NCBI GenBank assembly: GCA_963402885.1
Contig: OY727094.1
Location: 7,070,501 to 7,134,500 of the forward strand
Source of the DNA: Antedon bifida
Taxonomy: Eukaryota; Echinodermata; Crinoidea; Comatulida; Antedonidae
Direction of reading: 5' to 3'
DNA: 64,000 nucleotides
The notes beneath the pieces were generated by a model. That model searched no databases, was not told where the DNA came from, and was given only the letters and a program-made list of their open reading frames with translations. A program made the translations under genes and the position numbers. Positions 10,770 through 64,000 of this stretch are shown piece by piece. The first letter of the stretch is position 1; each line of letters opens with the position of its first letter.

Positions 10770-10870
10770 AAAAAACATGTGTCTACGAGTCGATATGAGA
10801 CCGGTGCTACTTTGTTGTTGATACAGAATATGAATTAGAAAGCTACCATTACTCTCTCCGAACCTGCCAT
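10770..10870 (+). pseudogene. KY-like gene fragment upstream of TRIM copy 1
   Basis: acatgtgtctacgagtcg with gatatgagaccggtgcta matches the KY-like gene around 44846-44885 with few differences. The following acagaat and gctaccattactct match its acagaac and gctacgccgttactcc. The frame is broken. Sequence further downstream (about 11100-11290) resembles the KY-TRIM spacers at 24.4 and 52.5 kb. This is the leftmost trace of the KY/TRIM array. Confidence 0.65.
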
Positions 10871-10885
10871 TCATACAATGGGCGC

Positions 10886-10902
10886 GGGGGGGGGGGGGGG
10901 GG
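10886..10902. repeat. Poly-G tract (17 G)
   Basis: An uninterrupted run of 17 guanines in otherwise AT-rich DNA, next to the KY-like fragment. Its length is likely to be polymorphic or imprecisely assembled. Confidence 0.9.
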
Positions 10903-11319
10903 TGGTATATTTGCAGGAAACACACAAAATCAATTTAACCCAAACAAAACATGTAATACATTTACAAATCGGACGTCTACAATCAATTGCCATCGTTGTG
11001 TGACGAATACTCCTTTCACATCGCTTAGCAAAACTCCAGAATTTACACACAACAGGTTACCAACACCGGCGTTTTGTTTATGTTAAAAACGGAGTTTTGC
11101 TAGGCCATGTTAGAGAGGCACAAGATTACATAAGGACTGTGGTTGAAGAAGTTGCATTTGAAGTACACAAACTGGGCTTCAAAGGATTATGGAAGTTTGC
11201 ATCTAATAAAGTACTCTCAACAAAAATATGATATTATTTCTTTGGGATAAGTGTGTTAATGGTGGTATCTTATCATTGTAAACACTTCAAACCTGTGCGT
11301 ATACATCCCTATGGTAACA

Positions 11320-11553
11320 TTCATGTATACATTGTCTGGTATCCAGAGTAAAGTACAGATGTTATCTTGTTTGAATGTACAGAAAGAACGAATCAGTAAT
11401 CTACACGAGTCACATGAATACAAACTCTACGATAGATTTAGACTTATTGAAATCATTCACACCACTCAACTTGGTCGACAGTGTAAGCCTAACCCGTCTG
11501 TCTCCGAAACGTCTCGTCACTAATAACTAACAAATCTCAAACATTATTCAAAG
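11320..11553 (+). promoter_or_regulatory. Probable 5' non-coding exon region of TRIM copy 1
   Basis: A consensus donor AAG|GTAAGT ends the exon at 11553, and the coding exon starts after TTCACAG at 12069, giving an intron of about 516 bp. The layout (donor upstream, acceptor 12 bases before the ATG) repeats at the other TRIM copies. The exon start is not visible; the left boundary is arbitrary. Short frames here are not considered coding. Confidence 0.45.
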
Positions 11554-12081
11554 GTAAGTACTATTTAAAGTTAAATAGTAGTCATTGTATCACAAAGAGT
11601 TCTTATAGCTTTTCCCTTACTATACTCCAGGAATCAAGAATATAACATAGCGAGCTGTCGATATTTTAAACGATTTACGATCTACGAATATGGAGGCACC
11701 ATTCGCATATATTCCAATATGAATTGTAGCTTTATGGAAGGTTGTATTTTTTATCATACTTTATCACAAAGCTACGTTCGTAACTAGATGTGATTCCAGC
11801 TCAAACACATGTATGGCACGCCGTGTTTGCCAAATTAGCATTGTTTTAACGAATATTCAACCAAAAAAAATGTGTTACGTAACCGTCTTGAGTAGACAAT
11901 GTGTACGTTAATCGTCGTATATATTGGCTCTCTTTCGGCGGTTCGATTATCTAAAAAGTAAAAGAAATTAGAACATGTACAAATAACAAAATAACGTTCT
12001 TATACATGCACATTAAAAATAAATAAATATAATATACTGTAAAGGTAACTTAATAATTATTGTTCACAGATCATTTTCAAG

Positions 12082-14241
12082 ATGGCTAGCGGCGGCGGTG
12101 ATTTGGCCAAATTTCTGGAAGATGTTGATGAGAAGGTTCTAGAGTGCCAAATATGCTTTAATCGACTCACCGAACCCAGAACCTTAACATGTCTTCACAG
12201 CTTCTGTCTGAGTTGTCTTGACAACTGGTTGAAGAAAACTAACAAAGTAAGCTGTCCAACTTGCTCCAAATCTTATCAGATTCCAGAGGGCGGTCTAAAG
12301 AAATTACCACCCAATACGTTTCTGAATAATTTGTTAGAAACAATTGAACAGTTTTCAAATACAGATCAGATAAATTGTATTTGTGGAAAGGAAGGTCAAG
12401 TTAAAACCTACTGTCAGGATTGCAGACAATATTTGTGCATAGAATGTAGTGACCATCATAAGAACATTCGAGCTTGCAAAAATCATAAGTTGCATTCAGT
12501 GGAAGATGTTCGATCTATGAGTGTAAATGAAATCAATGCCATGCATCCGCCTCTGTGTTCTGTCCACAACGAACCTTTAACTGTGTTTTGTAAAATATGC
12601 AAACTTGCCATTTGTATACACTGTTCAATCATGGATCACAAGGAATGGGAGGGAAAAGACAAACACGTGACCATCAGCATAAAAGATGCGTTTATAACGT
12701 TTAAACAAACATCAACAGGATTAGAGAGAGAGGCAAAAAGATGTACAACTAAATTAAATGATGATCTTAAAGTAATGACTGATTGTGTTAAGAAACTAGA
12801 TGAAAACAGAGAAAATAGTTTGAGAGGAATTGAAAATCACGGAAAGGAATTGGTAACAAGAATAAAAGAAAGTGAAGACAAATTAAAAAGTGAGGTGGAG
12901 GCTATGTACAAAATCAACAGGAAGGCGACTGATCCCGAAATAGAGGATGTGACAACGACGATATCGTATATAAATACAAACATCAGTTTGCTCCACCACC
13001 TAGGGAAGGGCAATGAAGCAACGGCAATGTTATCCGGTAATGACGTCATTACAGCACTAGATGATAGGATCAAGGCAGTACCTAAAACAAAACCTGATGT
13101 TAATGCTGAGATTAAATTTGAGAAAAATAATCAACAAATTGCTTCATTACAGAAGGATATTGGAATGGTTATACAATCAAGGGCAGACTATTTAGAATTA
13201 AGAGGAGCTGAGAGTATGACATTACCAACAATTGATGTTAAAATAAAAAAAAAAGATGAATGTGAAATACATGCAAATAACATAAATGCTACATTGACAC
13301 AACCGACAGGAGAAACTATCATTACTGAAGTAAAAGAAGATGACAATGGTGACTATACTCTGATAGGTAGATGTACAAGTGCGGGGATTTGCAAGGTTGA
13401 TGTTAGAGTTGATGGTGAACACATTAAGAAGTCACCAATGACTATTAACGTAAAGAAAGAAGGACTATTAGACACTATGAAAATAGATCAACATGTTTAT
13501 GATGTAGTAAAATATGGAGACGATTGCTTGCTTGTTTCATGTTTGGACAATGCCATTCACAAATACCAACAATCAGGTAAATACATTGGTCAGGTTACAC
13601 TATCAGAAGGTGTGTGTGTCTACAGCATGTTCCTAATGAACAATTGTAACATAGCATTTAGTGATCGTGGTAATAAATACATCACATTATGCACTATGAA
13701 TGGTGAGGTGGTTAAATCATTTGGTAAGGGAGAGATGTCAGATCCGTATGGTATTCATGTGGATGAAGCATCACGTGTCATGTATGTAGCTGATGATAAG
13801 AATGTAGCCATGTTTAATATTGAAAGCGGCAAACTCATAAAGAAAATAGCACAATGTAATAGGCCTCCCAAGTTTTCAATTGGTATCATCAGTGATGTCA
13901 CCCTTACAAGACAAGGAAACATTTGTGTACTTTACTTTTACCAAAGCTTCTTAAAACTATTTGACAATGAAGGAACGTTTATTAAAGTTCTTGTCGATGA
14001 GGGTGATGAAGATGGTAAGGTGAAGTACCCAGAAGGAGTAGTAGTTGATGATAATGACAACATCATAATATCAAGTAGGCATAAACTACAGCTATTTAGT
14101 AATAGTGGAAAGTTCATTAAAAGGATTGATAAAGCAGACGATGGAATCAACTATCCTCAAGGATTATGCATCATATCTCACAATCCACGTAGAGTAGCAG
14201 TGGCAAATAATGGAGAAACAGTTAAAATATTCAATTATTAA
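12082..14241 (+). CDS. TRIM-NHL type E3 ubiquitin ligase, copy 1 (intact)
   Basis: A 719-residue single-exon CDS; the acceptor TTCACAG ends at 12069, so ATG 12082 is the first usable start. The RING is C3HC4 (Cys22, 25, 37, His39, Cys42, 45, 58, 61). B-box 1 spans about 99-138 and B-box 2 about 159-195 (Cys159, His162, Cys170, 173, 178, 181, His186, 195). An Asp/Lys/Glu-rich coiled coil covers about 200-350, a filamin-like Ig domain about 385-475, and NHL-like blades (GIHVDEASRVMYVAD, GVVVDDNDNIIISS) about 480-719. Family knowledge: RING and B-boxes recruit E2 and self-assemble, and the NHL propeller binds protein or RNA targets, usually in the cytoplasm. One of four intact array members. It is nearest in layout to TRIM2/3/71-type proteins, but orthology cannot be claimed. 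Confidence 0.9.
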   Translation: MASGGGDLAKFLEDVDEKVLECQICFNRLTEPRTLTCLHSFCLSCLDNWLKKTNKVSCPTCSKSYQIPEGGLKKLPPNTFLNNLLETIEQFSNTDQINCICGKEGQVKTYCQDCRQYLCIECSDHHKNIRACKNHKLHSVEDVRSMSVNEINAMHPPLCSVHNEPLTVFCKICKLAICIHCSIMDHKEWEGKDKHVTISIKDAFITFKQTSTGLEREAKRCTTKLNDDLKVMTDCVKKLDENRENSLRGIENHGKELVTRIKESEDKLKSEVEAMYKINRKATDPEIEDVTTTISYINTNISLLHHLGKGNEATAMLSGNDVITALDDRIKAVPKTKPDVNAEIKFEKNNQQIASLQKDIGMVIQSRADYLELRGAESMTLPTIDVKIKKKDECEIHANNINATLTQPTGETIITEVKEDDNGDYTLIGRCTSAGICKVDVRVDGEHIKKSPMTINVKKEGLLDTMKIDQHVYDVVKYGDDCLLVSCLDNAIHKYQQSGKYIGQVTLSEGVCVYSMFLMNNCNIAFSDRGNKYITLCTMNGEVVKSFGKGEMSDPYGIHVDEASRVMYVADDKNVAMFNIESGKLIKKIAQCNRPPKFSIGIISDVTLTRQGNICVLYFYQSFLKLFDNEGTFIKVLVDEGDEDGKVKYPEGVVVDDNDNIIISSRHKLQLFSNSGKFIKRIDKADDGINYPQGLCIISHNPRRVAVANNGETVKIFNY

Positions 14242-17590: not shown

Positions 17591-17834
17591 TTAAAATCAA
17601 ACCAAACATTTTGTTTATTCTCATAGCCTACTTCCTTTAATTGATTCCGCTGTACTTTCAAAATGTACTCGTAAATCGTAAAATTATATTCCATAGACTT
17701 GTACACACTGCCAGCAACTACATACCGCGGCTATTGTTACTGTAGTTCATTCATAGGAGTCAGGGCCTTCTACTAAACCCAATTGTCCCCTCAACGTAGC
17801 TTTATGAAGTCAGTTCTGAAGGAACACCTGACAA

Positions 17835-18330
17835 AAAACGAAAGGCTCTATATGCTGATGGTTAGGTGTTTACTAATCCTGTAATGCAACGTGTTTTGTA
17901 TGCAAAAACGTAGTGCGGCCGATGCCAACTACCTCAAAATGATTGCTAATAATATTTATAATCATATCAATTCTTCTAAGCATAATATAAACAAGGCCAT
18001 ATACTACACATATATATATTCATGGCTGTAGTCGCGTGCTCAAATTTGAGTTAGTGCTTAACGACCGACCGACCAACCGACCGACCGATATATAATATAT
18101 ATAATTATTATATTATATTATATATTATATTAAGTTATAGCTGATTCTGTTCAACCAAACGATAATTATATAATATTATTAATTTACGTTTTAAACTGTT
18201 TTGACGTGACGTTTGGTTAACCCAGTATTACATGTAGTTGGTTATGCCTATTTGATGTTAATAAAAGTATCACTACCACTTCCCTCGAACGAAATATTTC
18301 CACGGAGTTCCGTAAAGATGATTCGTTTTA
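17835..18330 (+). pseudogene. KY-like pseudogene fragment upstream of TRIM copy 2
   Basis: Collinear but decayed match to the KY-like gene 45205-45700: cacctgacaaaaaacg (KY cctgacacaacaac), aaaatgattgctaataat (KY aaaatgattgctcataat), gctgattctgttcaac, and cactaccacttccctcgaac (KY cactaccacttccctcaaac). Stops and indels break every frame. A reversed R2 fragment at 17988-18090 is inserted in it. Confidence 0.75.
17988..18090 (-). mobile_element. R2 Helitron-like element end fragment, reversed
   Basis: Reads aacaaggccat, then agtcgcgtgctc and the cgaccgaccgacc simple repeat, i.e. the reverse complement of the right end of R2 at 15291-15957. The hairpin end is missing, so it is truncated. It interrupts the KY-like fragment and is followed by AT microsatellite sequence to about 18130. 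Confidence 0.6.
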
Positions 18331-18489
18331 CTAGAGTATGGCTTTTCTGTTATACAACAAACGCTTGTCGTTATTTTCTTTATAATCCATGTTTGAGGTA
18401 TATAAAAATCAGGGTGCCTAAGCAAGTTTATAATATTCAAACGTTTCCGTGTAATGTACAATGTTGTGTTATTGTATCAATAGACTGTA

Positions 18490-18647
18490 CATAAAAGAAT
18501 CAATCATGCTAGTCTACACAACTACACCAACGCCACAAGAACCATCAATACAAAACTATTCATTAATATCGGAACCATTTTGTTTAGATCTGAAAGCAAT
18601 TGCGTCTGTCGCAACTACCAAACACTAATAATTGAGAACATCAGAAG
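18490..18647 (+). promoter_or_regulatory. 5' non-coding exon and promoter region of TRIM copy 2
   Basis: About 150 bp nearly identical to 48190-48345: caatcatgctagtctacaca, atcggaaccattttgttt. It ends in a consensus donor (AAG|GTAAGT). tacataaaaga just upstream is a candidate TATA-like element in both. Conservation between otherwise decayed spacers suggests a transcribed leader. ATG-poor, no coding frame. Confidence 0.5.
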
Positions 18648-19740
18648 GTAAGTCAGATAATAAGTTCTTCAGTATATTTTGTAGCATTCCTTGTTGGGTT
18701 TAGTGCACCGTTTTTAGTATCGTATTTAATATTTAGTTTAAAATAAATCATCTTCATCCCGCACTAAATTATATGCGTAAACATTGAATAATATCACGCT
18801 AATTATGTTATAAGGCAATTTTACACAGACGAGCGGTAACGGTAAGAGGAAAACCGCGTAGCTTGTCTCAAGTAGAATTAATCTTTATCTGTCCAGAGCG
18901 CAAACCCCGGCCCGTCCGCTCCGTGTTTTGTGTAAATGGTCATAAGGAATAACATTCTATATTTTATTACCGTTACCGCTCGTTTGTGTTGATTGGCCTT
19001 TATAATTTTGTGAATTAACGGCATTGCTTCGGTCTTAATAAATAAACGACGAAGAACAAATCAAGTCTCTCCAGGATCAGTCATTAACCTCTGGGCCGTC
19101 TCCGGTCTTCTTCAATCAATCGTTTCGTTTATCTATTTGAGAAGTATAATACTGCCCTCTTTTAGAAGAGGGCTTATCTACAAAAAGCTAATTTTGAGTA
19201 AATGACAAAAACGCTTTTAATTGCACAATTCCATGTAGTATTTTATTTTCAAATGAATGTTTTTTAGAAGTACATTATTTAAACTTATCTGACATAGTTT
19301 TCAATTATTATTTTTTTTAATTTTTTTTTTGGGGAGGGGGGTCAAGCCTTTTTGAATTATTTGTACTTAAAAATGACGAGACATACTTCGAAAACATGGC
19401 ACTTTTCCAGTTATTTTGATTGATTTTGATAACAATTTACCAAACCATTAGTAACTTTAGTTGTAATAAATTATAAATATTTCTCTTAATCTAATTTATA
19501 ATCAATCTATGTTTTATTAGAATGTACAACTGTATAATTAACTTAGATCACGTAATTTGCTGTAAGAAAAAAAAAACACAATTTATGAAAGAAGCGCTTT
19601 TCTCATGAGAACAAAAATCTGCCTCATAATATATTCATCATGCATCTGATTGGTCAATGGTATTTGGCTTTGCCTAATTGGTGAAGTGAAGAGAACAATT
19701 CCTGTATTTGAAAAATGAAAAAAACGTATAATCTTGGCAA
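18648..19740. other. 5' intron of TRIM copy 2, no gene seen
   Basis: AT-rich intron between the leader exon donor at 18648 and the acceptor before 20295. An inverted pair, cgagcggtaacggtaa at about 18830 and ttaccgttaccgctcg at about 18967, may mark a short inserted element. No coding feature is recognised. Confidence 0.4.
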
Positions 19741-20305: not shown

Positions 20306-21473
20306 ATGGCTAGCGGTGGTGATTTGGCCAGATTTCTAGAAGATATTGATGAGAAAGTTCTAGAGTGCCAAATATGCTTTAATCGACTCAACGAACCCAG
20401 AACCTTAAAATGTCTTCACAGCTTCTGTCTGAGTTGTCTTGACAACTGGTTGAAGAAAACTAACAAAGTAAGCTGTCCAACTTGCTTCAAATCTTATCAG
20501 ATTCCAGAGGGCGGTCTAAAGAAAGTACCACCCAACACGTTTCTGAATAATTTGTTAGAAACAATTGAACAGTTTTCATATGCAAATCAGATAAAATCTA
20601 TTTGTGAAAAGGAAGGCCAAGTTAAAACCTACTGTCAGGATTGTAGACAATATTTGTGTCAAGAGTGCAGTAACCATCATAAGAACATTCCGGCTTGCAA
20701 AATCACAAGTTGCATTCAGTGGAAGATGTGTTTCTGATGTAGTTAAATATGGAGTCGATTGCTTGCTTGTTTCATGTTTGGACAATGACATTTACAGATA
20801 CAAGCAATCAGGTAAATACATTGGTAAGGTTACACTATCAGGAGGTGTGGGTATCAACAGAATGTTCCTAATGAACAATTGTAATATAGCAGTCAGTGAT
20901 CATGGTAATAAATGCATCACAATATGCACTTTGAATAGTGAGGTGGTTAAATCATTTGGTAAGGGAGAGTTTACATGTCCATATGGTATTCATGTGGATG
21001 AAGTATCACGTGTCATGTATGTAGCTAATAATGAGAATGTAGCTATGTTTAACATTGAGAGTGGCAAACACATTAAGAAAATAGCACCATGTAATAGGGC
21101 TCCCATGTTTTCAATTGCTATCATTGATGTCACCCTTACAAGTCAAGGATATATTCTTGTACTTTACCATAAACAAAGCTGCTTAAAACTATTTGATAAT
21201 GAAGGAAATGTTATTAAAGTGCTTGTCGATGAGGGCGATGTAGAAGGTAAGGTGAAGTACCCAACAGGAGTAGTAGTTAATGATAATGACAACATCATAA
21301 TGTTAAGTCACCACAAACTACAGCTATTTAGTAATAGTGGAAAGTTCATAAAAAGGATTGATAAAGCAGACGATGGAATCAACGATTTTTTTGGTTTATG
21401 CATCATATCAAACAATCCACGTAGAGTAGCAGTGGCAAATGGAGACAAAACAGTGAAAATATTTAATTATTAA
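20306..21473 (+). pseudogene. TRIM copy 2: internally deleted, RING + B-box 1 then NHL out of frame
   Basis: The ATG at 20306 follows the usual acceptor (TTTTTTACAG to 20294). The RING is intact. In B-box 1 the first Cys is Ser (IKSICEKEG). At about 20697 one A is missing compared with the other copies. At about 20729-20733 the sequence jumps from ggaagatgt into the NHL region, deleting about 1 kb (B-box 2, coiled coil, filamin domain). The frame from the ATG stops at 20737 (143 residues). The NHL part stays open in another frame to the TAA at 21473. It could still make a RING/B-box-only protein; otherwise it is a pseudogene. The 3' flank matches intact copies. Confidence 0.85.
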
Positions 21474-22944: not shown

Positions 22945-24340
22945 ACTTAATTACGATAACCCATACCAGTGCTACTAATTTACTGTTAATAATGAAGAAG
23001 CTACATCGTTATTCTTCTACCTGTCATTCGTTGATATTGTCTAGGAATCGGTATGAGACTGCTGCTACTAATTTACTGTTAATAATGAAGAAGCTACATC
23101 GTTATTCTTCTACCTGTCATTCGTTGATATTGTCTAGGAATCGGTATGAGACTGCTGCTACTAATTTACTGTTAATAATGAAGAAGCTACGTCGTTATTC
23201 TTCTACCTGTCATTCGTTGATATTGTCTAGGAATCGGTATGAGACTGCTGCTACTAATTTACTGTTAATAATGAAGAAGCTACGTCGTTATTCTTCTACC
23301 TGTCAATCGTTGATATTGTCTAGGAATCGGTATGAGACTGCCGCTACTAATTTACTGTTAATAATGAAGAAGCTACATCGTTATTCTTCTACCTGTCATT
23401 CGTTGATATTGTCTAGGAATCGGTATGAGACTGCTGCTACTAATTTACTGTTAATAATGAAGAAGCTACATCGTTATGTTTCTACCTGTCATTCGTTGAT
23501 ATTGTCTAGGAATCGGTATGAGACTGCTGCTACTAATTTACTATTAATAATGAAAAAGCTACATCGTTATTCCTCTACCTGTCATTCGTTGATATTGTCT
23601 GGGAATCGGTATGAGACTGCTGCTACTAATTTACTATTAATAATGAAGAAACTACATCGTTATTCTTCTACCTGTCATTCGTTGATATTGTCTAGGAATC
23701 GGTATGAGACTGCTGCTACTAATTTACTGTTAATAATGAAGAAGCTACATCGTTATTCTTCTACCTGTCATTCGTTGATATTGTCTAGGAATCGGTATGA
23801 GACTGCTGCTACAAATTTACTGTTAATAATGAAGAAGCTACATCGTTATTCTTCTACCTGTCATTCCTTGATATTGTCTAGGAATCGGTATGAAACTGCC
23901 GCTACTAATTTACTGTTAATAATGAAGAAGCTACATCGTTATTCTCCTACCTGTCATTCGTTGATATTGGAATCGGTATCAGACTGCTGCTACTAATTTA
24001 ATACTGAATAAGAATGAGAAAGCTACACCGTTACTCCCTACCTACCACTCTGACTTTGAAGAACAAATAACAAATATTTAAATATCATTAGGCACCACAG
24101 CACATTTTGAAAGACAAAATGTGTTTTAAATAATTCAAAATTTAGTGGGGTTATACTGAAACACATCGAAAAAGACCGATTGTCAGAATACAATAAAGTT
24201 TCCTGTTGACGTCATAGTCTTTATGAAATAAATCTATTTGCATACAAATTGACAAAAGAATGGTTGATTGTATAGGCCGATGGTTGTAATGTCGTAAATC
24301 ATTGCGATATGCTTGCATTTAGCAAAAAATGATGACACAC
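22945..24340 (+). pseudogene. KY-like pseudogene fragment with expanded 93-bp minisatellite
   Basis: The 3' part (ggaatcggtatcagactgct, aagaatgagaaagctacacc, gttactccctacctacca, then tatgcttgcatttagcaaa) corresponds to KY-like gene 44860-44930 and about 45280. Related single-unit copies lie at 52055 and 58150. Here the first part is an 11-unit tandem array. A frame of 356 codons from 22926 to 23996 runs through the array, encoding the repeated MKKLHRYSSTCHSLILSRNR. It arises from the repeat having no stop and a length divisible by three. There is no evidence that it is expressed. Confidence 0.7.
22974..23996 (+). repeat. 93-bp minisatellite, 11 units
   Basis: aggaatcggtatgagactgc recurs every 93 bp from 23043 (23136, 23229 and so on) to about 23882, with a final variant at about 23963. 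Units differ by only a few substitutions, so the expansion is recent or homogenised. The sister loci at 52060-52180 and 58160-58265 have a single unit. Confidence 0.95.
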
Positions 24341-27646: not shown

Positions 27647-27658
27647 TCCCTCTTCTTT
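27647..27658 (-). promoter_or_regulatory. Polypurine tract
   Basis: Read on the minus strand, aaagaagaggga abuts the 3' LTR. This is where plus-strand DNA synthesis is primed in LTR retrotransposons. Confidence 0.85.
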
Positions 27659-41770: not shown

Positions 41771-41774
41771 CCTC

Positions 41775-48130: not shown

Positions 48131-48189
48131 TATATTCAAACTTTTCCGGGTAAAGCACAATGTTGTGTTCTTATCAATATACTGTACAT

Positions 48190-49193: not shown

Positions 49194-51329
49194 ATGGCAA
49201 GCGGTGGTGAGTTGGCTATTGGTGAAAAAGTTCTAGAGTGCAAAATATGCTTTAATCGACTCAATGAACACAGAACCTTAACATGTCTTCACAGCTTCTG
49301 TCTGAGTTGTCTTGACAACTGGTTGAAGAAAACTAACAAAGAAAGCTGCTGTCCAACTTGCTCCAAATCTTATCAGATTCCAGAGGGCGGTCTAAAGAAA
49401 TTACCACCCAACACGTTTCTGAATAATTTATTAGAAACAACTGAACAGTTTTTAAATACCGATCAGATAAAATGTAATTGTGGAAAAGAAAATCAAGTTA
49501 AAACCTACTGTCAAAATTGCAGACGATATTTGTGCCAAGAGTGTAGTGACCATCATAAGAACATACCAGCTTGCGAAAATCACAAGTTGCATTCAGTGGA
49601 AGATGTTCGATCTGTGAGTGTAAGTGAAATCAATGCCATGCACCCGCCTCTGTGTTCTGCCCACAATGAACCTTTAACTGTGTTTTGCAAAATATGCAAT
49701 GTTGCCATTTGTAAACACTGTTCGATCATGGATCACAAGGAATGGGAAGGAAAAGACAAGCACGTGACCATCAGCATAGCAGATGCGTTTAAAACGTTTA
49801 AACAAACATCAGCGGAATTGGAAAAAGAGGCAAAACAATGTACAGCTAAATTAAATGATGATCTTAAAGTAATGACTGATCGTGTTAAGAAACTAGATGA
49901 AAACAGAGAAAAGAGTTTGAGAGGAATTGATAATCACGTCAAGGATTTGGTAACAAGAATAAAAGAAAGTGGTGACAAATTAAAAAGTGAGGTGGAGGAA
50001 ATTTACATAATCAAGAGAAAAGCAACTGATGCCGAACTAGAAGAAGTGACAACGAAAATATCGTATATAAATACAGACATCAATTTTCTACATCACATAG
50101 AGAAGGCCAATGAAGCAACGGCGATGATATCCGGTAATGACGTCATTACAGCACTGGATGAAAGGATCAAGGCAGTACCTAAAACAAAACCTGATGTTAA
50201 TGTTGAGATAAACTTTGTGAAATACAATCAAGAAGTTGCTTCATTACAGACGGATATTGGAATGGTCACACAATCAAGGGCAGTCGACTGTTTAGAAATA
50301 GGAGAAGCTGAGAGTATGACATTGCCAACAATTGATGTAAAAATAATGAAAACTGATGAATGTGAAATACACGCAAATGACATAAAAGCTACATTGACAC
50401 AACCAACAGGAGAAACTATCATCTCTGAAGTGGAAGAAGATGACAGCGGTGACCATACTGTGATAGGTACAAGTGCAGGGACTTGGAAGGTTGATGTTAA
50501 AGTTGATGGTGAACCCATTAGGAAGTCGGCACCAATGACTGTTAAAGTGGAGAAAGGACTATTGAACACTATAAAAATAAATAAAGATGTTTTTGATGTA
50601 TTTAAATATGGAGACGAATGCTTGCTTGTTTCAAGTATGGAAAATGCCATTCACAAATACCAGCAATCAGGTAAATACATTGGTAAGGTTACACTATCAG
50701 AAGGTGTGTGTGTCTACAGCATGTTCCTAATGAAAAATGGTAATATAGCATTCAGTGATTGTGGTAATAACTGCATAACATTATGCACTATGAATGGTGA
50801 GGTGGTTAAATCATTTGGTAAGGGGGAGTTGACATGTCCAAGTAGTATCCATGTGGATGAAGCATCACGTGTCATGTATGTAGTTGATCATGGGAATGTA
50901 GCCATGTTTAACATTGAAAGTGGCAAACTGATTAAGAAAATAGCACCATGGAATAACATGGGTTTCATTGATATTATTGATGTCACCCTTACAAGACAAG
51001 GGTATATTCTTGTACTTTACTGTGTACAAAGCTGCTTAAAACTATTTGATAATGAGGGAAAGTTTATTAAAGTTCTTGTCAGTGAAGGTGATGAAGATGG
51101 TATGGTGAAGCACCCACAAGGAGTAGCAGTTGATGATAATGACAACATCATAATATCAAGTCACCACAAACTACAGCTATTTAGTAATAGTGGGAAGTTT
51201 ATAAAAAGGATTGATAGCAAAGAAGAAGGAATCACCTTTCCTTATGGATTATGCATCGTATCTCACCATCCACGTAGACTAGCAGTGGCAAATTATGGAC
51301 ACAGAAATGTAAAAATATTTAATTATTAA
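49194..51329 (+). CDS. TRIM-NHL type E3 ubiquitin ligase, copy 5 (intact, divergent)
   Basis: The acceptor TTGTTTACAG ends at 49182; ATG 49194 gives 711 residues. It is the most divergent intact copy: about seven residues are missing before the RING (MASGGELAIGEKVLEC), and one inserted codon gives SCCPTC instead of SCPTC at the last RING pair. The coiled coil has many substitutions and the linker and first blade are changed. B-box ligands are kept (CNCGKENQ, CSAHNEP, CKHCSIMDH). The filamin-like domain is shorter by a few residues. The NHL region ends YGHRNVKIFNY. Its 3' flank differs from that of copies 1, 2, 3, 6 and 8 and matches the flank of the fragment at 56805, marking a second TRIM subfamily. 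Confidence 0.9.
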   Translation: MASGGELAIGEKVLECKICFNRLNEHRTLTCLHSFCLSCLDNWLKKTNKESCCPTCSKSYQIPEGGLKKLPPNTFLNNLLETTEQFLNTDQIKCNCGKENQVKTYCQNCRRYLCQECSDHHKNIPACENHKLHSVEDVRSVSVSEINAMHPPLCSAHNEPLTVFCKICNVAICKHCSIMDHKEWEGKDKHVTISIADAFKTFKQTSAELEKEAKQCTAKLNDDLKVMTDRVKKLDENREKSLRGIDNHVKDLVTRIKESGDKLKSEVEEIYIIKRKATDAELEEVTTKISYINTDINFLHHIEKANEATAMISGNDVITALDERIKAVPKTKPDVNVEINFVKYNQEVASLQTDIGMVTQSRAVDCLEIGEAESMTLPTIDVKIMKTDECEIHANDIKATLTQPTGETIISEVEEDDSGDHTVIGTSAGTWKVDVKVDGEPIRKSAPMTVKVEKGLLNTIKINKDVFDVFKYGDECLLVSSMENAIHKYQQSGKYIGKVTLSEGVCVYSMFLMKNGNIAFSDCGNNCITLCTMNGEVVKSFGKGELTCPSSIHVDEASRVMYVVDHGNVAMFNIESGKLIKKIAPWNNMGFIDIIDVTLTRQGYILVLYCVQSCLKLFDNEGKFIKVLVSEGDEDGMVKHPQGVAVDDNDNIIISSHHKLQLFSNSGKFIKRIDSKEEGITFPYGLCIVSHHPRRLAVANYGHRNVKIFNY

Positions 51330-52054: not shown

Positions 52055-52460
52055 ATAACCCATACCAGTGCTACTAATTTACTGTTAATAATGAAGAAGC
52101 TACATCGTTATTCTTCTACCTGTCATTCGTTGATATTGTCTAGGAATCGGTATCAGACTGCTGCTACTAATTTAATACTGAATAAGAATGAGAAAGCTAC
52201 ACCGTTACTCCCTACCTACCACTCTGACTTTGAAGAACAAATAACTAATATTTTAAATATCATTAGGCACCACAGCACATTTGGAAAGAAAAAATGTGTT
52301 TTAAATATTCCAAAATAAGTGGGTTTATACTGAAACACATCGAAAAGGACCGACTGTCAGAATACAACAAAAGTTTCCTGTTGACGTTATAGGCTTTATG
52401 AAATAAATCTATTTGCATACAAACTTGACAAAAAAAATGGTTGAATGTACAGCCCGATGG
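52055..52460 (+). pseudogene. KY-like pseudogene fragment upstream of TRIM copy 6, single repeat unit
   Basis: Same sequence as 22945-24260 but with one 93-bp unit instead of eleven. The frame from 52025 (97 codons) contains RNRYQTAATNLILNKNEKATPLLP, aligning to the KY-like NRYETGARYLIQNKNATPLLP. Truncated and without start or splice context. Confidence 0.75.
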
Positions 52461-52899
52461 TTGTAATGTCGTAAATTAAGTTTCAACAGTCATGCACACT
52501 ATTTAATAATTTACGTCCGCATACCAAAGATACAATAACCAAACAAGAACAGAGAATACATATCAAAAAACGTCACAAGTCTACAACGTGATTTCACGTT
52601 ACATGAGGATTATTCTGCATTTAATCGTAGTTATTATACTTACAAATTATAACAAGTACGATATTGTCATTTCTTTGGAATATGTGTTTATTGTGGTAGT
52701 TTATCAATGTAATCAATTTAAACATGTTAAACCTACAGACAAACAAAACAAAGTCATATTATGAGCCCTCTTTGAGAGTAGGGTAAAAATAACTTTTTAA
52801 CCCTTTATTATAATCATTGTGGTGTCTTTCGCAGGCCTATATGATTCTTAACGTTTCCGCTGTGTACAACACAAAATTCTGTTAATAGACTTCTGTATA
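52461..52899. other. KY-TRIM spacer shared between units
   Basis: Repeats 24370-24780 and 58640-59030 almost base for base (acgtgatttcacgttacatg, gagccctctttgagagtagg). No gene is seen. Confidence 0.65.
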
Positions 52900-53269
52900 T
52901 AGACGAATCAATATGCTATAATAAAACGTCACAGGAAGCATGACTACATTAGTAATTCATATCGGAACCATTTTGTTTCAACTTACATATGAGAGCATTT
53001 GTGCCTGTCTACAAAAACAAAGACTAATCAATTGACAAACACAAACGTAAGTTAGTATAAAAGTTCTTCAGCCATTCTGTTCAGAGGTTTTATTTGTTTA
53101 ATTGTGTTTGCACATCCAACGGCAAGTAACTCACTAATACAGGATAGATACGCTATGTTGTTTGTATTAACCAAATCTTATTTGAGGCTTAGGGAGTGAG
53201 GTAGAAAACAGTTGTGAGTTAACCCTCGCTAAGATTGGATCTTGGAAGGCAAGAACGTTAACAAACAAG
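52900..53269 (+). promoter_or_regulatory. 5' non-coding exon region of TRIM copy 6, two donors
   Basis: atcggaaccattttgtttca and two donors, AAC|GTAAGT after 53046 and CAAG|GTAAGG after 53269, match the region upstream of copy 3. The coding exon begins at 53709. Confidence 0.5.
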
Positions 53270-53719: not shown

Positions 53720-55874
53720 ATGGCTACCAGTGACCTGGCTAAATTTCTAGAATGTATTGATGAGAAGGTTCTAGAGTGCCAAATATGCTTTAATCGACTC
53801 AACGAACCCAGAACCTTAACATGTCTTCACAGCTTCTGTCTGAGTTGTCTTGACAACTGGTTGAAGAAAACTAACAAAGTAAGCTGTCCAACTTGCTCCA
53901 AATCTTATCAGATTCCAGAGGGCGGTCTAAAGAAATTACCACCAAACACGTTTCTAAATCATTTGTTAGAAACAATTAAACCATTTTCGAATACAGATCA
54001 AATAAAATGTTTTTGTGGAAAGAAACGTCAAGGTAAAACCTACTGTCATGATTGCAGACGATATTTATGTCACGATTGTAGTGACCATCATCAGAACATA
54101 CCAGCTTGCAAAAACCACAAGTTGCATTCAGTGGAAGGAAGATGTTCGATCTATGAGTGTAAGTGAAATCAATGCGATGCACCCGCCTCTGTGTTCCGTC
54201 CACAATGAACCTTTAACTGTGTTTTGTAAAATATGCAATATTGCTATTTGTATATATTGTTCGATAATTGATCATAAGGAATGGGAAGGAACAGACAAGC
54301 ACGCGACCATCAGTATAACGGATGCGTTTAAAACTTTTGAACAAACGTCAGCAGGATTGGAGAGAGAGGCAAAAAGATGTACAGCTAAATTAAATGATGA
54401 TCTTAAAGTAATGACTGATTGTGTTAAGAAACTAGATGAAAACAGAGAAAATAGTTTGAGAGGAATTGAAAATCACGGAAAGGAATTGGTAACAAGAATA
54501 AAAGAAAGTGAAGACAAATTAAAAACTGAGGTGGAGGCTATGTACAAAATCAAGAGGAAGACAACTGATGCCGATATAGAGGATGTGACAACGACGATAT
54601 CGTATATAAATACAAACATCAATTTGCTCCACCACCTAAGGAAGGGCAATGAAGGAACGGCAATGTTATCCGGTAATGACATAATTACAGCGCTGGATGA
54701 TAGAATCAAGACAGTGCCCAAAACACAACATGATTTTAATGTTGAGATTAACTTTGTGAGAAACCATAAAAAAATGGCTTCATTTCAGAATGATATTGGA
54801 ATGATTACAACGCTGAGGGCAGCAGACTGTTTGGAATTGAGAGGAGCTGAGAGTATGACAACTGGTCAAACAATTAATGTTAAAATAATAAAAACTGACG
54901 AATGTGAAATACATGCAAATGACTTAAAAGCTACATTGATAAAATCAACAGGAGAAACTATTATCCCTGAAATAAAAGAAGATGACAATGGTGACTATAC
55001 TGTGATAGGTAGATGTAAAAGTGCAGGGACTTGCAAGGTTGATGTTAGAGTTGATGGTAAACATATTAAGAAGTCACCAATGACTATTAAAGTAGAGAAA
55101 GAAGGATTATTAAACAGTATGAAAATAGATAAATATGTTTATGATGTAGTTAAATATGGAGACGATTGCTTGCTTGTTTCATGTTTGGACAACGGCATTT
55201 ACAAATACAAGCAATCAGGTAAATACATTGATAAGGTTACACTATCACAAGGTGTGTGTGTCTACAGCATGTTCCTAATGAACAATGGTAATATAGCATT
55301 CAGTGATTGGGGTAATAACTGCATCACAGTATGCACTGTGAATGGTGAGGTGGTTATATCATTTGGTAAGGAAAAGTTGACATATGCATGTGGTATTCAT
55401 GTGAATGAAGCATCACGTGTCATGAATGTAGCTAATAATGATAATATAGCCATGTTTAACATTGAAAGTGGCAAACTGATTAAGAAAATAGCACCATGTG
55501 ATAAAAAGGGTTTCCTTGGTATCATTGATGTCACCCTTACAAGACAAGGATATATTCTTGTACTTTGCTGTGACCAAAGCTGCTTAAAACTATTTGATAA
55601 TGAAGGAAAGTTGATTAAAGTTCTTGTCGATAAGGGCAATGTAGATGGTAAGGTGAATTTACCAAGAGGAGTAGTAGTTGATGGTAATGACAATATCATA
55701 ATATCAAGTTGCCACAAACTACAGCTATTTAGTAATAGTGGAAAGTTCATCAAAAGGATTGATAAAGCAGACGATGGAATCAACGATCCTCGAGGATTAT
55801 TCATCATATCTCACCATCCACGTAGAGTAGCAATGGCAAATGGAGACAAAACAGTGAAAACATTTAATTATTAA
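53720..55874 (+). pseudogene. TRIM copy 6: full length but with 4-bp frameshift after B-box 1
   Basis: The acceptor TTCACAG ends at 53708; ATG 53720. RING and B-box 1 are intact to about residue 139. A tandem 4-bp duplication (gtggaaggaagatg against gtggaagatg in other copies) near 54137 then shifts the frame, and translation stops at 54166 (148 residues). Downstream, B-box 2, coiled coil, filamin-like domain and NHL blades remain open in the second frame to the TAA at 55874. A single lesion in an otherwise clean gene suggests a very recent loss, a segregating null allele or an assembly error. The product could be a RING/B-box-1-only protein like that predicted for copy 2. Confidence 0.85.
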
Positions 55875-56800
55875 ATAAAGATTAATAAGCTTAGCTTCAT
55901 TAAGCTTACGACATACACTTTATGGTTAAATAAATTACTAAAATCATATTCAAACCATAGTCAACATTATTAATTATTAATACAAAATAATAACTTATAA
56001 ACAAAAAAATATAATAATAAAGGCGTATTCGCTATTTATTTCATAATATCACATTTTATTTGAATGCTGTGAAACTGTTTATTTTCAATTATCAGGTTCA
56101 TGTAGTGATGGCGAATAACCCTGTATAATATTAACTGCATTAGTGTCTGTATAATTATTCTGTATAAGCAGGCCTATGTATTCTGCAAAAAATATACTAT
56201 TAATTTACATCAACGTTTATAGCAATGTGTAATTCATAATTACTGTGTAATACATAATTTCTGTGTAATTCCTAATTTTTCTGGTAACTTTCAGTCTTTT
56301 ATCATCATTGCATTGTAGTTTTACTTTATATATTTTTATTAGAAATAGAGGGTATATAATTAATTATAATAATAAATAATGTAAATGAACTTACTATTTT
56401 TGGTTAATTTGTGGTACAATAAAATAATTTAGGGTTTGACTTAATTTTATCTTTCTCCATCACTTCAGTTTTAGATATTGTGTGTTTGTGTAGGAAGGTA
56501 GACCGATAAAATTCGTACACGAATAAAAATATCTCTCACAAATTTTCGTCTTTTTTGTTTTTACATTCATAATGTATATTTTACTTTGATCTTAATCACA
56601 ATGTTTTGAAAAATGTGTAGACCCAACATAAACAATATTAAATAACAACATAGACTCAAAGAGTATAAATACCATAGTGACGTTTCGTTGATATGGTGTC
56701 AACTACCTCAAATTACTGTTTGGATTGGTCTGTAAACACTTGGTGACGCTGTGAATTTTGTTGTACTAAATCATACTGGTTAAATTATTTGTAACGAAGA
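55875..56800 (+). other. TRIM 3' flank of copy 6
   Basis: First-type 3' flank (gcttacgacatacact, aatttctgtgtaattcc, ggtagaccgataaaattcg), AATAAA near 55929. Stops near 56760 within the block that in copy 1 reads cgctgtgtagcgccaccag, and is joined to a TRIM NHL fragment. Confidence 0.65.
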
Positions 56801-56804
56801 ATTA

Positions 56805-57279
56805 AAAAATCCACGGGGTATTCATGTGGATGAAGCATCACGTGTAATGTATGTAGCTGATAATATGAATGTAGCCATGTTTAATATTGAAAAGTGGCAA
56901 ACTGATTAAGAAAATAGCACAATGTGACACAACAGGGTTGAAATATATAAATATATTTATCTCTTACAAGAGAGGGATATATTCTATACTTTACTCTGTA
57001 AAAAAACTGCTTAAAACTATTGATAATGAAGGAAAGTTGATTAAAGTTCTTGTCGATGAGGGCGATGAAGATGGCAAGATGAAGAACCCAGGAGGAGTAC
57101 TAGTTGAGTTGGCACAAACTACAGCTATTTTAGTAATAGTGGAAAGTTCATTAAAAGGATTGATAAAAAAGAAGGAATCATGTTTCCTCAAGGATTATGC
57201 ATCATATCTCACCATCCACGTAGAGTAGCAGTGGCAAATTATGGTGATAAAAATGTAAAAATATTATTAAATTATTAAA
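56805..57279 (+). pseudogene. TRIM fragment: NHL region only
   Basis: Begins at ccacggggtattcatgtgga and follows the NHL part to the end (caatggtgataaaaatgtaa-like ending, attaaattattaaac). Several indels (gaaaagtggcaaac, an A insertion; loss of part of the last blades) break the frame. Its last codons and 3' flank resemble copy 5, so it is the tail of a lost second-type TRIM gene. Confidence 0.8.
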
Positions 57280-57413
57280 CAATGATTATAGATACTAGCA
57301 CATATTATCATTAAAGTTTAGAATATTTATGTTTAAATAAGTTTTTCTTATATTGGAACATAAATTAATTTGTAAACTTTTGATTATATTAAGAATATGA
57401 GATTGCTATTTTT

Positions 57414-58149: not shown

Positions 58150-58620
58150 TCTTGATAACGATACCAGTGCTACTAATTCACTGTTAATAAAGAAGCTACA
58201 TCGTTTTTCTTCTACCTGTCATTCGTTGATATTGTCTAGGTATAGGTATGAGACTGCTGCTACTAATTTTATACTGAATAAGAATGATAAAGCTACACCG
58301 TTACTTCCTACCTACCACTCTGACTTTGAAAAACACAAATATTTTAAATATCATTAGGCACCACAGCACATTTTGAAAGACAAAATGTGTTTTAAATAAT
58401 TCCAAATTTAGTGGGGTTATACTGAAACACATCGAAAAGAACCGACTGTCAGAATACAATAACGTTTCCTATTGACGTCATAGGCTTATGAAATAAATCT
58501 ATTTGTATACAAACTTGACAAAAAAAATGGTTGACTGTATAGACCGATGTTTGTAATGACGTAAATCATTGTGAAGGCGATATGCTTGCATTTAGCAAAA
58601 TACGATGTCACACAATGCAT
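58150..58620 (+). pseudogene. KY-like pseudogene fragment upstream of TRIM copy 8
   Basis: Single-unit version of the repeat (gctacatcgtttttcttctac, tatgagactgctgctact), then aagaatgataaagctacacc and tatgcttgcatttagcaaaa, matching the KY-like gene and the loci at 22945 and 52055. Confidence 0.75.
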
Positions 58621-59029
58621 TTCAGTTTTCCAAAAAAAATTACCAAGTTTCAACAATCATGCACACTATTTAATAATTTACGTCCGCATGCTAAAAATAC
58701 AATAACCAAACAGGAACAGAGAATACATATAAAACAAACATCACAAGTCTACAACGTGATTTCACGTTACATGAGGATAATTCTGCATTTAATCGTAGTT
58801 AATAAAGTACAAATTATAAAAAGTACGATATTGTCATTTCTTTGGAATATGTGATTATTGTGGTAGTTTATCAATGTAATCAATTTAAACATGTTAAACC
58901 TACAGACAAACAAAGCCATAGTATGAGTAGGGTAAAAATAACTGATTAACCCTTTGATTATCATTGTGGTGTATTTCGCAGGCCTATATGATTCTTAACG
59001 TTTCCGCTGGGTACAGCACAACATTCTGT

Positions 59030-59418
59030 TAATAGACTACTGTATATAGACGAATCAATATGCTATAATAAAACGTCACAGGAAGCATGACTACATTAGT
59101 AATTCATATCGGAACCATTTTGTTTCAACTTACATATGAGAGCATTTGTGCCCGTCTACAAAATCAAAGACTAATCAATTGACAAACAAAAACGTCAGTT
59201 AGTATAAAAGTTCTTCAGCCATTCTGTTCAGAGGTTTTATTTGTTTAATTTTGTTTGCACATACATCGGCAAGTAACTCACTAATACAGGATAGATAAGC
59301 TATGTTGTGCTTTTTAACCAAATCTTATTTGAGGCTTAGAGAGTGAGGTTAAAAAACAGTTGTGAGTTAACCCTCGCTAAGATTGGATCTTGGACCTTGG
59401 AAGGAAAGAACAAACAAG
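59030..59418 (+). promoter_or_regulatory. 5' non-coding exon region of TRIM copy 8; first donor altered
   Basis: Homologous to 24780-25142 and 52900-53269. The first donor reads GTCAGT (after 59193) instead of GTAAGT, while the second, CAAG|GTAAGG after 59418, is intact and is likely to be used. A further atcggaaccattttt block lies at 59942. The coding exon begins at 60257. Confidence 0.5.
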
Positions 59419-60267: not shown

Positions 60268-62430
60268 ATGGCTACCAGTGACCTGGCTAAATTTCTAGAA
60301 GATATTGATGAGAAGGTTCTAGAGTGCCGAATATGCTTTAATCGACTCAATGAACCCAGAACCTTAACATGTCTTCACAGCTTCTGTTTGAGTTGTCTTG
60401 ACAACTGGTTGAAGAAAACTAACAAAGTAAGCTGTCCAACTTGCTCCAAATCTTATCAGATTCCAGAGGGCGGTCTAAAGAAATTACCACCCAACACGTT
60501 TCTTAATAATTTGTTAGAAACAATTGAACAGTTTTCAAATACAGATGAGATAAAATGTATTTGTAGTAAGGAAGGTCGATCTAAAACCTACTGTCAGGAG
60601 TGCAGACGGTATTTGTGCCACATTTGTAGTAATGCTCATAAGAACATTCCAGCTTGTAAAAACCACAAGTTGCATTCAGTGGAAGATGTTCGATCTATGA
60701 GTGTAAGTGAAATCAATGCCATGCACCCGCCTCTGTGTTCTGTCCACAATGAACCTTTAACTGTGTTTTGTAAAATATGCAATGTTGCCATTTGTATACA
60801 CTGTTCGATCATGGATCACAAGGAATGGGAGGGAAAAGACAAACACGTGACTATCAGCATAAAAGATGCGTTTAAAACATTTAAACAAACATCAGCAGGA
60901 TTAGAGAGAGAGGCAAAAAGATGTATAACTAAATTAAAGTATGATCTTAAAGTAATGACTGATCGTGTTAAGAAACTAGATGAAAACAGAGAAAAGAGTT
61001 TGAAGGGAATTCAAAACCACGTCAAGGATTTGGTAACAAGAATAAAAGAAAGTGAAGACAAATTAAAAACTGAGGTGGAGGCTATGTACAAAATCAAGAG
61101 GAAGACTACTGATGCCGATATAGAGGATGTTACAACGACGATATCGTATATCAATACAAACATCAATTTGCTCCATCACTTAGGGAAGGGCAATGAAGCA
61201 ACGGCAATGTTATCCGGTAATGACGTCATCACAGCACTGGATGATAGGATCAAGGCAGTACCTAAAACAAAACCTGATGTTAATGCTGAGATTAAATTTG
61301 TTAAAAGCAATCAACAAATTAATTCATTACAGAAGGATATCGGAATTGTAACACAATCAAGGGCAGGCTATTTAGAATTAAAAGGAGCTGAGAGTATGAC
61401 ATTACCAACAATTGATGTTAAAATAATAAAAACTGACGAATGTGAAATACATGCAAACGACTTAAAAGCTACATTGACACAACCAACGGGAGAAACTATC
61501 ATCATTCAAGTTGAAGAAGAAGACAATGGTGACTATACTGTGATAGGTAGATGTACAAGTGCAGGGATTTGCAAGGTTGATGTTAGAGTTGATGGTGAAC
61601 ACATTAAGAAGTCACCAATGACTATTAAAGTAGAGAAAGAAGGATTATTAAACAGCATACAAATAGCCCCGGTTAGTTTTTCTGCTGTTCAAGATGTAGT
61701 TAAATATGGAGACGATTGCTTGCTTGTTTCATGTTGGGACAATGCAATTCACAAATACCAGCAATCAGGTAAATACATTGGTAAGGTTACACTATCAGAG
61801 GGTGTGCGTGTCTACAGCATGTTTCTAATGAACAATGGTAATATAGCATTCAATGATCTTGGTAACAAATGCATCACAGTATGCACTATGAATGGTGAGG
61901 TGGTTAAATTATTTGGTAATGGAGAGTTGACAGCTGCACGTGGTATTCATGTGGATGAAGCATCACGTGTCATGTATGTAGCAAATAATAAGAATTTAGC
62001 CATGTTTAACATTGAAAGTGGCAAACACATTAAGAAAATAGCACAATGTGATACTACGGGTTCTGGATTTATAAATATCATTGATGTCAACCTTACAAGA
62101 CAAGGAAATATTCTTGTACTTTACTGTAAACAAAGTTGCTTAAAACTATTTGATAATGATGGAAAGTTTATTAAAGTTCTTGTCGATGAGGGCGATGAAG
62201 ATGGTAAGGTGAAGATCCCATCGGAAGTAGTAGTTGATGATAATGACAATATCATAATATCAAGTGACCACAAACTACAGCTATTTAGTAATAGTGGAGA
62301 GTTTATTAAAAGGATTGATAAAGCAGACGATGGAATCAACAATCCTCGAGGATTATGCATCATATCCCACAATCCACGTAGAGTAGCAATGGCAAATATA
62401 GACAAAACAGTAAAAATATTCAATTATTAA
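60268..62430 (+). CDS. TRIM-NHL type E3 ubiquitin ligase, copy 8 (intact)
   Basis: The acceptor TTCACAG ends at 60256; ATG 60268 gives 720 residues (the in-frame ATG at 60217 is intronic). Full RING (CRICFNRL), B-box 1 (CICSKEGRSKTYC), B-box 2, coiled coil, filamin-like domain and NHL-like blades. Closest to copies 3 and 6. Copy-specific differences sit before the first blade (IAPVSFSAVQ) and after KKIAQCD (TTGSGFIN). By family, a cytoplasmic RING ubiquitin ligase whose propeller selects the target. Likely to be expressed from the leader exon at about 59.0-59.4 kb. Confidence 0.9.
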   Translation: MATSDLAKFLEDIDEKVLECRICFNRLNEPRTLTCLHSFCLSCLDNWLKKTNKVSCPTCSKSYQIPEGGLKKLPPNTFLNNLLETIEQFSNTDEIKCICSKEGRSKTYCQECRRYLCHICSNAHKNIPACKNHKLHSVEDVRSMSVSEINAMHPPLCSVHNEPLTVFCKICNVAICIHCSIMDHKEWEGKDKHVTISIKDAFKTFKQTSAGLEREAKRCITKLKYDLKVMTDRVKKLDENREKSLKGIQNHVKDLVTRIKESEDKLKTEVEAMYKIKRKTTDADIEDVTTTISYINTNINLLHHLGKGNEATAMLSGNDVITALDDRIKAVPKTKPDVNAEIKFVKSNQQINSLQKDIGIVTQSRAGYLELKGAESMTLPTIDVKIIKTDECEIHANDLKATLTQPTGETIIIQVEEEDNGDYTVIGRCTSAGICKVDVRVDGEHIKKSPMTIKVEKEGLLNSIQIAPVSFSAVQDVVKYGDDCLLVSCWDNAIHKYQQSGKYIGKVTLSEGVRVYSMFLMNNGNIAFNDLGNKCITVCTMNGEVVKLFGNGELTAARGIHVDEASRVMYVANNKNLAMFNIESGKHIKKIAQCDTTGSGFINIIDVNLTRQGNILVLYCKQSCLKLFDNDGKFIKVLVDEGDEDGKVKIPSEVVVDDNDNIIISSDHKLQLFSNSGEFIKRIDKADDGINNPRGLCIISHNPRRVAMANIDKTVKIFNY

Positions 62431-62888
62431 ATAATGATTAATAAGCTTAGCTTTATTAAGCTTACGACATACCATTGTATGGTTAAATAAAACACTAAAA
62501 TCATATTCAACCCATAGTGAACATTATTAATTATTAATTAAAAATAATAACTTGTGAACAAAATAATTATAATAAAAAAGGCGTAATCGCTATTTAATAA
62601 TACATTTTATTTGAATGCTGTGAAGTTGTTTAGTTTCAATTATCAGGTTTATGTAGTGATGTCGAATAATGCTGTATAATATTAACTGCATTCGTATGAA
62701 TGTTGTATAAATAAGCAGGCCTATGCATTCTGCAAAAATATACTATTAATTTACATTAACGTTTATAGCAATTTGTAATTCATAATGACTGTGTAATTCA
62801 TAATTACTGTGTAATTCTTAATTTCTCTAGGTATCTTTCATTCTTTTATCATCATTGCATTGTAGTTTTACTTTATTTTTATTAGAAA
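62431..62888 (+). other. TRIM 3' flank of copy 8
   Basis: First-type flank with AATAAA near 62484 (gcttacgacatacc, tatcaggtttatgtagtgat). No gene. Confidence 0.65.
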
Positions 62889-63105
62889 TAGGGGGTCTAT
62901 AATTAATTATAATAATAAATAGGGGGTCTATAATTAATTATAATAATAAATAGGGGTCTATAATTTATTATAATAATAAATAGGGGGTCTATAATTTATT
63001 ATAATAATAAATAGGTGGTCTATAATTAATTATAATAATAAATAGGGGGTCTATAATTAATTATAATAATAAATAGGGGGTCTATAATTAATTATAATAA
63101 TAAAT
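62889..63105. repeat. 31-bp minisatellite, 7 units
   Basis: tagggggtctataattaatt plus ataataataaa repeated at 31-bp spacing, with one unit lacking a G and some with ttt for taa. Copies 2, 3 and 6 have only a single related unit at the same place in their 3' flanks. Confidence 0.95.
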
Positions 63106-63796
63106 AATGTAAATGAACTTACTATTTTTGGTTAATTTGTGGTACAATAAAATAGTTTAGGTTTTTACTTAATTTTATCTTTCTCCATCGCTTCAGTTTT
63201 AGATATTGTGTGTTTGTGTTGGAAGGTAATCCGACCAAATTCGTACAAAAATAAAAATCTCAGTCACAAATTGTCGTCTTTTTGTTGTTTTTTTTTTTTA
63301 CATCCATGTCTATGTTACATTGATCTGAATCACAATGTTTTCCAATGTCTGTAGACCAAACATAAAGAAATATATTCATCAGGTTCCGAATGCAAAACAA
63401 ACTGAACTATTTTACTATTTTGTTGAACCAAAAAATAGACGCAAAGAGTCTAAATATCTTAGTGACGTTTCGTTGACATGCTGTCAACTTCCTCAAACTA
63501 GTGTTTTGATTGGTCTGTAAAATATTGGTGACGATGTGTTGCGCCACCAGTCGTCCTGTTGTCGACAGGTACAGTACTGTATAACTTTTAAGATTACTTA
63601 GAGCTATAATTATTTCTTTATGTTGAGAAATATTTGCATTACGGCCAAGATTTGAATTAGAATATTAGTTTAAAATGTTCATTTAACGTTTACACACATT
63701 GGAACACTTAAAGGTATAGGTATACAAAGTCTATTTAACGTTTACATACCTCGGAACACAATCGAGATCATACAATCATTTGAACGATTATTCCAA
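63106..63796 (+). other. Distal TRIM 3' flank of copy 8
   Basis: ggaaggtaatccgaccaaatt, cgccaccagtcgtcctgttg at 63542, then the block shared with 39212-39532. Preserves the empty site for R1. Confidence 0.65.
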
Positions 63797-64000
63797 TACC
63801 GTATTTATTAGTATTCGCTTATTCGAGGTATTCGTTTATTTTTTGGGTGAAATGTGGTAACACATTTAATATCGAAAAGTGATAATATACAGTAAAAATT
63901 GTTTCGAAATGATTTGTAACCTGTATATTATCTTGTCAATTAATAAATTCTACTACAAATAGAAATGTATAATATGCTTTTGGCGGGGTGTTTATTCAAG
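63797..64000. mobile_element. TIR element, cut by the window end
   Basis: Matches 39533-39740 almost base for base from aataccgtatttattag to the last bases (cggggtgtttattcaag). The right TIR lies outside the window. Confidence 0.55.

Follow-up and report, generated by a model that had tools for sequence, protein, structure and literature searches.

The available part of one account of the Sdic repeat of Drosophila melanogaster describes a tandem unit made of a working gene and a presumed pseudogene piece of its neighbour (AnxB10-like), and calls gene conversion there rampant (PMC7475035). In the human major histocompatibility complex, modular tandem duplication of RCCX leaves, as the accessible text of a second paper has it, partial copies of neighbours (TNXA of TNXB, RP2 of RP1) in set positions next to the kept genes (PMC11542561). 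Among TRIM genes, the portion of a 2008 survey available here names the IGFLMN-related subgroup as the only expansion in invertebrates (PMC2533329). We analyzed a 64,000-nucleotide window from the crinoid Antedon bifida (contig OY727094.1, here C7; C7:7070501-7134500), in which TRIM genes alternate with pieces of a KY gene. The co-duplicated TRIM-KY array is real and belongs to a known kind, its nearest counterparts being Sdic and RCCX. In the most probable history, tandem duplication copied a KY gene together with its TRIM neighbour, TRIM was largely kept, most KY copies decayed and each TRIM has a promoter of its own. A literature search, with most subscription papers outside its coverage, found no report of a KY-TRIM pair.

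Alternation of TRIM copies and KY pieces

We read 174 kb of C7 around the window, the window included; coordinates above 64000 carry on the window numbering (extended). TRIM and KY calls were made from open reading frames (ORFs) and tblastn, and domains were called with Pfam. All six TRIM copies named in the window by an earlier sequence-only reading start where it placed them, as confirmed by ORFs and tblastn, and each is preceded on the same strand by a KY-derived piece and then a leader region (6/6). The alternation of decayed, same-orientation KY pieces and TRIMs proposed by that reading extends over the 174 kb, where a KY piece (E<=1e-3) lies upstream of 13 of the 14 TRIMs with a 5′ end. 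The sole exception, the TRIM at 80340 (extended), has no KY match even at E<=10. Leader regions are found upstream of all 14, 11 of a type we call L and three of a type we call KL, and three full KY genes stand inside the same array. The mark of modular tandem duplication, a partial neighbour copy always on one and the same side of the kept gene, is thus present at 13 of these 14 TRIMs. When the 174-kb sequence was reversed, neither the KY query nor the L query had a match at E<=1; in the actual sequence, the KY query gave no minus-strand match at E<=0.01. The 3′ flanks of the TRIMs continue into a spacer common to the KY-gene intervals and the class B intervals described below. This layout supports the duplicating unit suggested earlier, the 3′ part of KY plus TRIM, and the view of the locus as a birth-and-death array. 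The conserved leader exon that had been placed after each KY piece survives only in part: a leader region is there in all six cases, but it is of the KL type before TRIM 12082 and of the L type before the other five.

The KY gene of the window (42138..45997, frame broken in the last exon) carries the Ig-like_KY domains that define the family (PF23265 in four stretches, E 6.9e-30), and its exons from 43008 onward presumably encode a transglutaminase-like core. The KY-derived pieces correspond to its last exon; with tblastn at E<=0.01, the three full KY genes are the only places in the 174 kb where earlier exons occur, and the debris detected is last-exon sequence. The two other full genes are near-copies at 66319 (extended, last exon broken) and 124556 (extended, last exon open), and the three are 98.0-98.5% alike. 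At each of them a KY piece is followed by a KL-like leader region and then by KY coding sequence; in the window, the piece lies at 40805..41184 and the leader region, homologous to the TRIM KL leader, at 41291..41718. Between C7 and a second contig, C16, the ratio of nonsynonymous to synonymous change (dN/dS) of KY is 0.19-0.39 by exon. A search of the genome (316 Mb, 27 contigs) for the Ig-like_KY family lists KY at least at the three genes of the C7 array, at two genes on C16 and at a distant locus on C7.

The units fall into three classes. All window features given here, KY pieces included, are on the plus strand, except for one long terminal repeat (LTR) element. In class B units (before 20306, 49194, 73663, 112665 and 131361), KY sequence runs up to ~45735 and the L leader region follows. 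The piece at 17801..18377 (KY 45177-45731) is joined in this way to the L region at 18380..18754, ahead of a TRIM copy broken by a large internal deletion (20306..21473), and the piece at 47462..48055 (KY 45144-45735) to the L region at 48056..48458, ahead of the TRIM at 49194..51329, an ORF of 711 amino acids (aa). Class C units (before 12082, 94186 and 118635) begin at KY 44831 and pass into the entire KL leader region. Their representative in the window has a KY piece at 10757..10882 (75% identity to KY gene 44831-44945), a KL region at 11197..11618 with a splice-donor-like GTAAGT at 11554, and a TRIM of 719 aa at 12082..14241.

Class A units mostly hold KY 44853 to ~45293, ~100 bp of the KL region and then L, with the exception of unit 79253, which lacks the KY part, and of units 100693 and 142772, in which that part is shorter. 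In the window, one such unit comprises a KY piece (52137..52470), an L region (52727..53160) and a TRIM with a frame break near 54137 (53720..55874), and another a KY piece (58233..58600), the upstream part of the KL region (58794..58894) abutting an L region (58894..59306), and a TRIM of 720 aa (60268..62430). The class A TRIM at 34884..37043 (719 aa) has its L region at 24620..25031 and its KY piece at 22970..24328, part of the latter being expanded as a 93-bp minisatellite. Pairing this TRIM with a KY piece near 22945, as had been done earlier, is correct in that the piece lies upstream, but the two are ~10 kb apart and the LTR element (27452..32096, minus strand) lies between them. The element, whose frames look Ty3/gypsy-like by eye, lies within what is presumed to be the leader intron of TRIM 34884, and its insertion was probably recent because its two 195-bp terminal repeats are 100% identical. 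The minisatellite itself (22970-24000, 11 copies) is built from KY-derived sequence and has one frame open for 368 codons.

Leader regions and the second chromosome

Controls on C16, chosen by place, comprised 30 kb of a plus-strand TRIM array, 10 kb of a minus-strand array and 11 kb at a KY gene; 16 kb were read at each of the lone TRIMs on C13 and C14, and 5 kb at the distant KY. None of the five C16 TRIMs read with their upstream side (four of the plus array, one of the minus array) has KY debris above it. Four have no KY sequence upstream, and the fifth has a full-length KY gene, with one in-frame stop, directly upstream, which rejects a KY linkage unique to C7. The order at this locus is KY gene, KL leader, TRIM, with KL starting ~350 bp past the KY gene, and the stretch between the two genes is homologous to the KL region at 11197..11618. 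Because C16 also has KY, then leader, then TRIM, the neighbourhood appears to be old. L lies upstream of three of the five C16 TRIMs and KL above the one behind KY. At the C13 and C14 TRIMs, neither KY nor the L leader rises above noise (best L E 0.08, minus strand; best KY exon E 0.085). The lone C14 TRIM has a weak KL match above it (E 0.0047 with a mixed profile, 9e-4 with a profile from TRIM leaders only; best reversed-sequence match E 0.11), at which pairwise scores are not above the null.

A 24-base L core is identical in four of the five C7 class B units and in the three distal leaders of the C16 plus array; in the leader at 48056..48458 it reads TGTACATAAAAGAATCAATCATGC, a sequence that recurs unchanged in three C16 leaders. 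At 2 of the 21 fixed positions, the remaining class B unit departs from this core, as does the leader of the minus array. A genome-wide search with KL found four places, each upstream of a TRIM (the three of class C and one on C16), and missed the more distant KY-gene leaders. A profile built from TRIM KL leaders alone does match the leaders of the C7 KY genes (E 5e-13, 3e-12 and 2e-8), which are thus homologous to the TRIM KL. This profile also picks up four class B L leaders in their core (E 5e-4 to 4e-3), so that an ancient core may be common to L and KL. Several TRIMs of C7 and C16 have a second leader-like copy in a proximal position, a short way upstream (59870-59981, ahead of TRIM 60268; extended 85628-85736 and 144376-144462; L024 3045-3238), which suggests alternative promoters.

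Among five class A units, variable columns number 27/151 in KY part b, 105/467 in the intron and 10/160 in the core promoter plus leader, in a test limited to KY part b and excluding KY part a and a sixth, near-identical unit. KY part b does not differ significantly from the intron (p=0.25), and the core promoter plus leader is less variable than KY part b (p=0.0016). Pairwise distances over six units are 0.027 for the core, 0.032 for the leader, 0.078 for KY part b and 0.096 to 0.135 for the intron. KY part a gives a pooled 0.222, a value that we believe one poorly aligned unit has inflated, because four single pairs give 0.034-0.085. Since the KY debris varies like intron while core and leader are conserved, constraint in these alignments lies in the promoter and leader and is absent from the KY debris.

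It is unlikely that KY supplied the TRIM promoters, with TRIM landing downstream of KY promoters or tails and adopting them. Such a history would fit the ~330 bp of homologous leader region common to the C7 KY genes and class C TRIMs, and the position of TRIM promoters within a few hundred bases of KY tails. However, at E<=1 no KL was found in the 3.5 and 5.4 kb that precede the two C16 KY genes, nor in the ~3 kb ahead of the first exon detected for the distant KY, C7:10198407. KL adjoins TRIM on both chromosomes, with the weak match above the lone C14 TRIM besides, and the L leader occurs on C16 without KY debris. A derivation of L from the KY tail is rejected by the C16 units and by the class B junction, at which KY homology ends where L begins. 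The sequence-only reading had made KY the supplier of TRIM regulatory DNA, a claim left unsupported by L without KY debris on C16 and by the intron-like variation of that debris. Its proposal that TRIM promoters arose within or next to a KY tail finds no support as to "within"; "next to" is literally true of KL on C16, where KY is a neighbour rather than a demonstrated source.

If regulatory DNA moved at all, the opposite transfer, from TRIM to KY, is likelier, a preference we hold with modest confidence; TRIM is favoured as the KL donor because KL is missing above the two C16 KY genes and the distant KY. We tentatively suggest that the C7 KY genes are driven by a promoter and noncoding leader exon of TRIM type instead of their own and are switched on together with the TRIM ubiquitin ligases. 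Two promoter cassettes would also be shuffled among TRIM coding lineages by within-exon exchange, which would make the array a natural promoter-swapping machine. We consider this reading as a whole possible but short of probable.

We regard it as very improbable that the KY debris is kept as a regulatory or recombination element, driving the turnover of the array or insulating its TRIM copies. Its presence at 13 of the 14 C7 TRIMs with a 5′ end would speak for such a role, but the debris varies at the intron rate, different copies retain different KY parts, and four of the five C16 TRIMs have no upstream KY sequence. That the KY-like pieces are a dispersed repeat lying here by chance can hardly be right: one piece did become a minisatellite, but a genome-wide search with the class A piece gave at least 23 matches, all in the C7 array or five related KY genes, which rejects a dispersed repeat for this piece and, with the last-exon homology, bears out the earlier assignment of the pieces to the KY gene at 42138.

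Domains, selection and exchange in the TRIM copies

All four features of TRIM-NHL proteins are present in the array TRIMs. At least one Pfam RING model scores above its cut-off in each of the four full-length copies scanned. The B-box (PF00643, cut-off 24.1) is above cut-off in three of the four and in the 54006 fragment, 12082 falling below at 23.8 bits. The filamin-type repeat (PF00630) passes in three of the four and in the 54006 fragment, and is not reported for 49194. No Pfam NHL model is reported at E<=0.001; the propeller is identified by a profile of eight copies, which matches TRIM2 chains (7qrv, E 1.7e-29, positions 524-721). Besides RING, B-box and filamin matches, the copies thus have an NHL match to TRIM2/TRIM3 structures.

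Among 13 intact TRIM copies, dN/dS ranges from 0.29 to 0.64 over pairs that are not independent, one pair without synonymous change being set aside. By these ratios, intact copies are under purifying selection, although many copies are broken too. In windows along eight C7 copies, dN/dS is 0.27 at the RING end and 0.64-0.71 in the C-terminal (NHL) part, the latter evolving faster, as if meeting changing targets.

The copies are mosaic, and the nearest neighbour of a given copy shifts along the exon. Over the first 260 columns, the class C copies group as a single clade (support 98/95), which is rejected in columns 260-900 (p-AU 4.3e-5) and 900-2200 (p-AU 7.7e-73), in tests on ten rows with short copies excluded. 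Leader type is uncoupled from coding lineage because of recombination inside the TRIM exon. In the tree, C7 TRIMs separate from the C16, C13 and C14 copies, on a weakly supported branch (81/62). One divergent, broken C7 copy (extended 97765-99452) falls outside the C7 and C16 groups under midpoint rooting.

The window also contains a TRIM coiled-coil fragment (38065..38428), which passes into an 18-bp acidic-codon repeat of 8.7 copies (38065-38590 for the two together), and a TRIM 3′ (NHL) fragment (56777..57288). Near its start are a 419-codon frame at 6263-7522, which is Thr/Ser/Asn-rich, contains three 96-bp repeats, is mucin-like by eye and has no Pfam match at E<=0.001, and AT-rich degenerate tandem repeats with periods of ~20 to 122 bp (3772-4466).

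Proposed history of the array and comparison with known systems

The following history would account for the observed linkage, order, junctions, mosaicism and location of constraint. KY and TRIM would have stood head-to-tail on one strand before the C7 and C16 arrays split. On C7, repeated tandem duplication would then have taken TRIM plus parts of KY, with breaks inside the last KY exon, and most KY copies would have been truncated and decayed, leaving three near-identical KY genes, one with an open last exon. Each 5′-complete TRIM is predicted to have its own promoter-like region and noncoding leader (L or KL) ahead of a single coding exon, and the KY debris would be a neutral passenger just upstream of that promoter region. 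Later unequal exchange or gene conversion within the TRIM exon probably broke the tie between leader type and the remainder of the exon, and the C7 KY genes most likely acquired their KL-type leader from a TRIM copy.

Several observations weigh against this history. The promoters and leader exons are predicted from conservation and splice-like signals. KY pieces have alignment edges at 44831 in all three class C copies and at 44853 in the four class A copies inspected, where the minisatellite blurs the edge; the flanks 5′ of class A and class C pieces differ, and no single founding junction is thus visible. KL identity between C7 KY-gene leaders and either C7 or C16 TRIM KL is 56-57%, compared with 66-68% between C7 and C16 TRIM KL. 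Because the KY leaders are about equally far from both, the transfer would have to be old or the KY leader fast-evolving. The reading of C16 covers 51 kb by place only. The minus-array C16 TRIM has neither L nor KL in the stretch fetched, and TRIM, L and KL are all missing from the 2.1 kb downstream of the C16 KY at 1864575.

We consider the locus a clearly resolved example of how a passenger neighbour decays while the gene array around it expands; a second chromosome serves as its control, and it separates debris beside a promoter from debris turned promoter. It suggests that, within an array, a promoter may be handed from a gene to an unrelated neighbour and copies may swap their promoter types; the possible reverse transfer, from TRIM to KY, and the shuffled leader types are what merits further work.

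Like the TRIM2/TRIM3-like subgroup, the array TRIMs combine RING, B-box, filamin-type repeat and NHL; here, by comparison, the expansion is a local array and evolution is quicker in the C-terminal part than in the RING part. As in RCCX, partial neighbour copies lie at fixed places beside kept genes. RCCX modules, according to the part of the source at hand, are ~30 kb long and most often two (PMC11542561), whereas 14 TRIM copies with a 5′ end are found here in 174 kb and leader types have been exchanged. The array shares with Sdic a tandem unit that holds a kept gene and a piece of a neighbouring gene (PMC7475035, in the part available). Sdic is itself described there as a chimera of two neighbours, present in one species only (PMC7475035); in the crinoid array, TRIM coding sequence is unfused to KY, and related arrays occur on two chromosomes.

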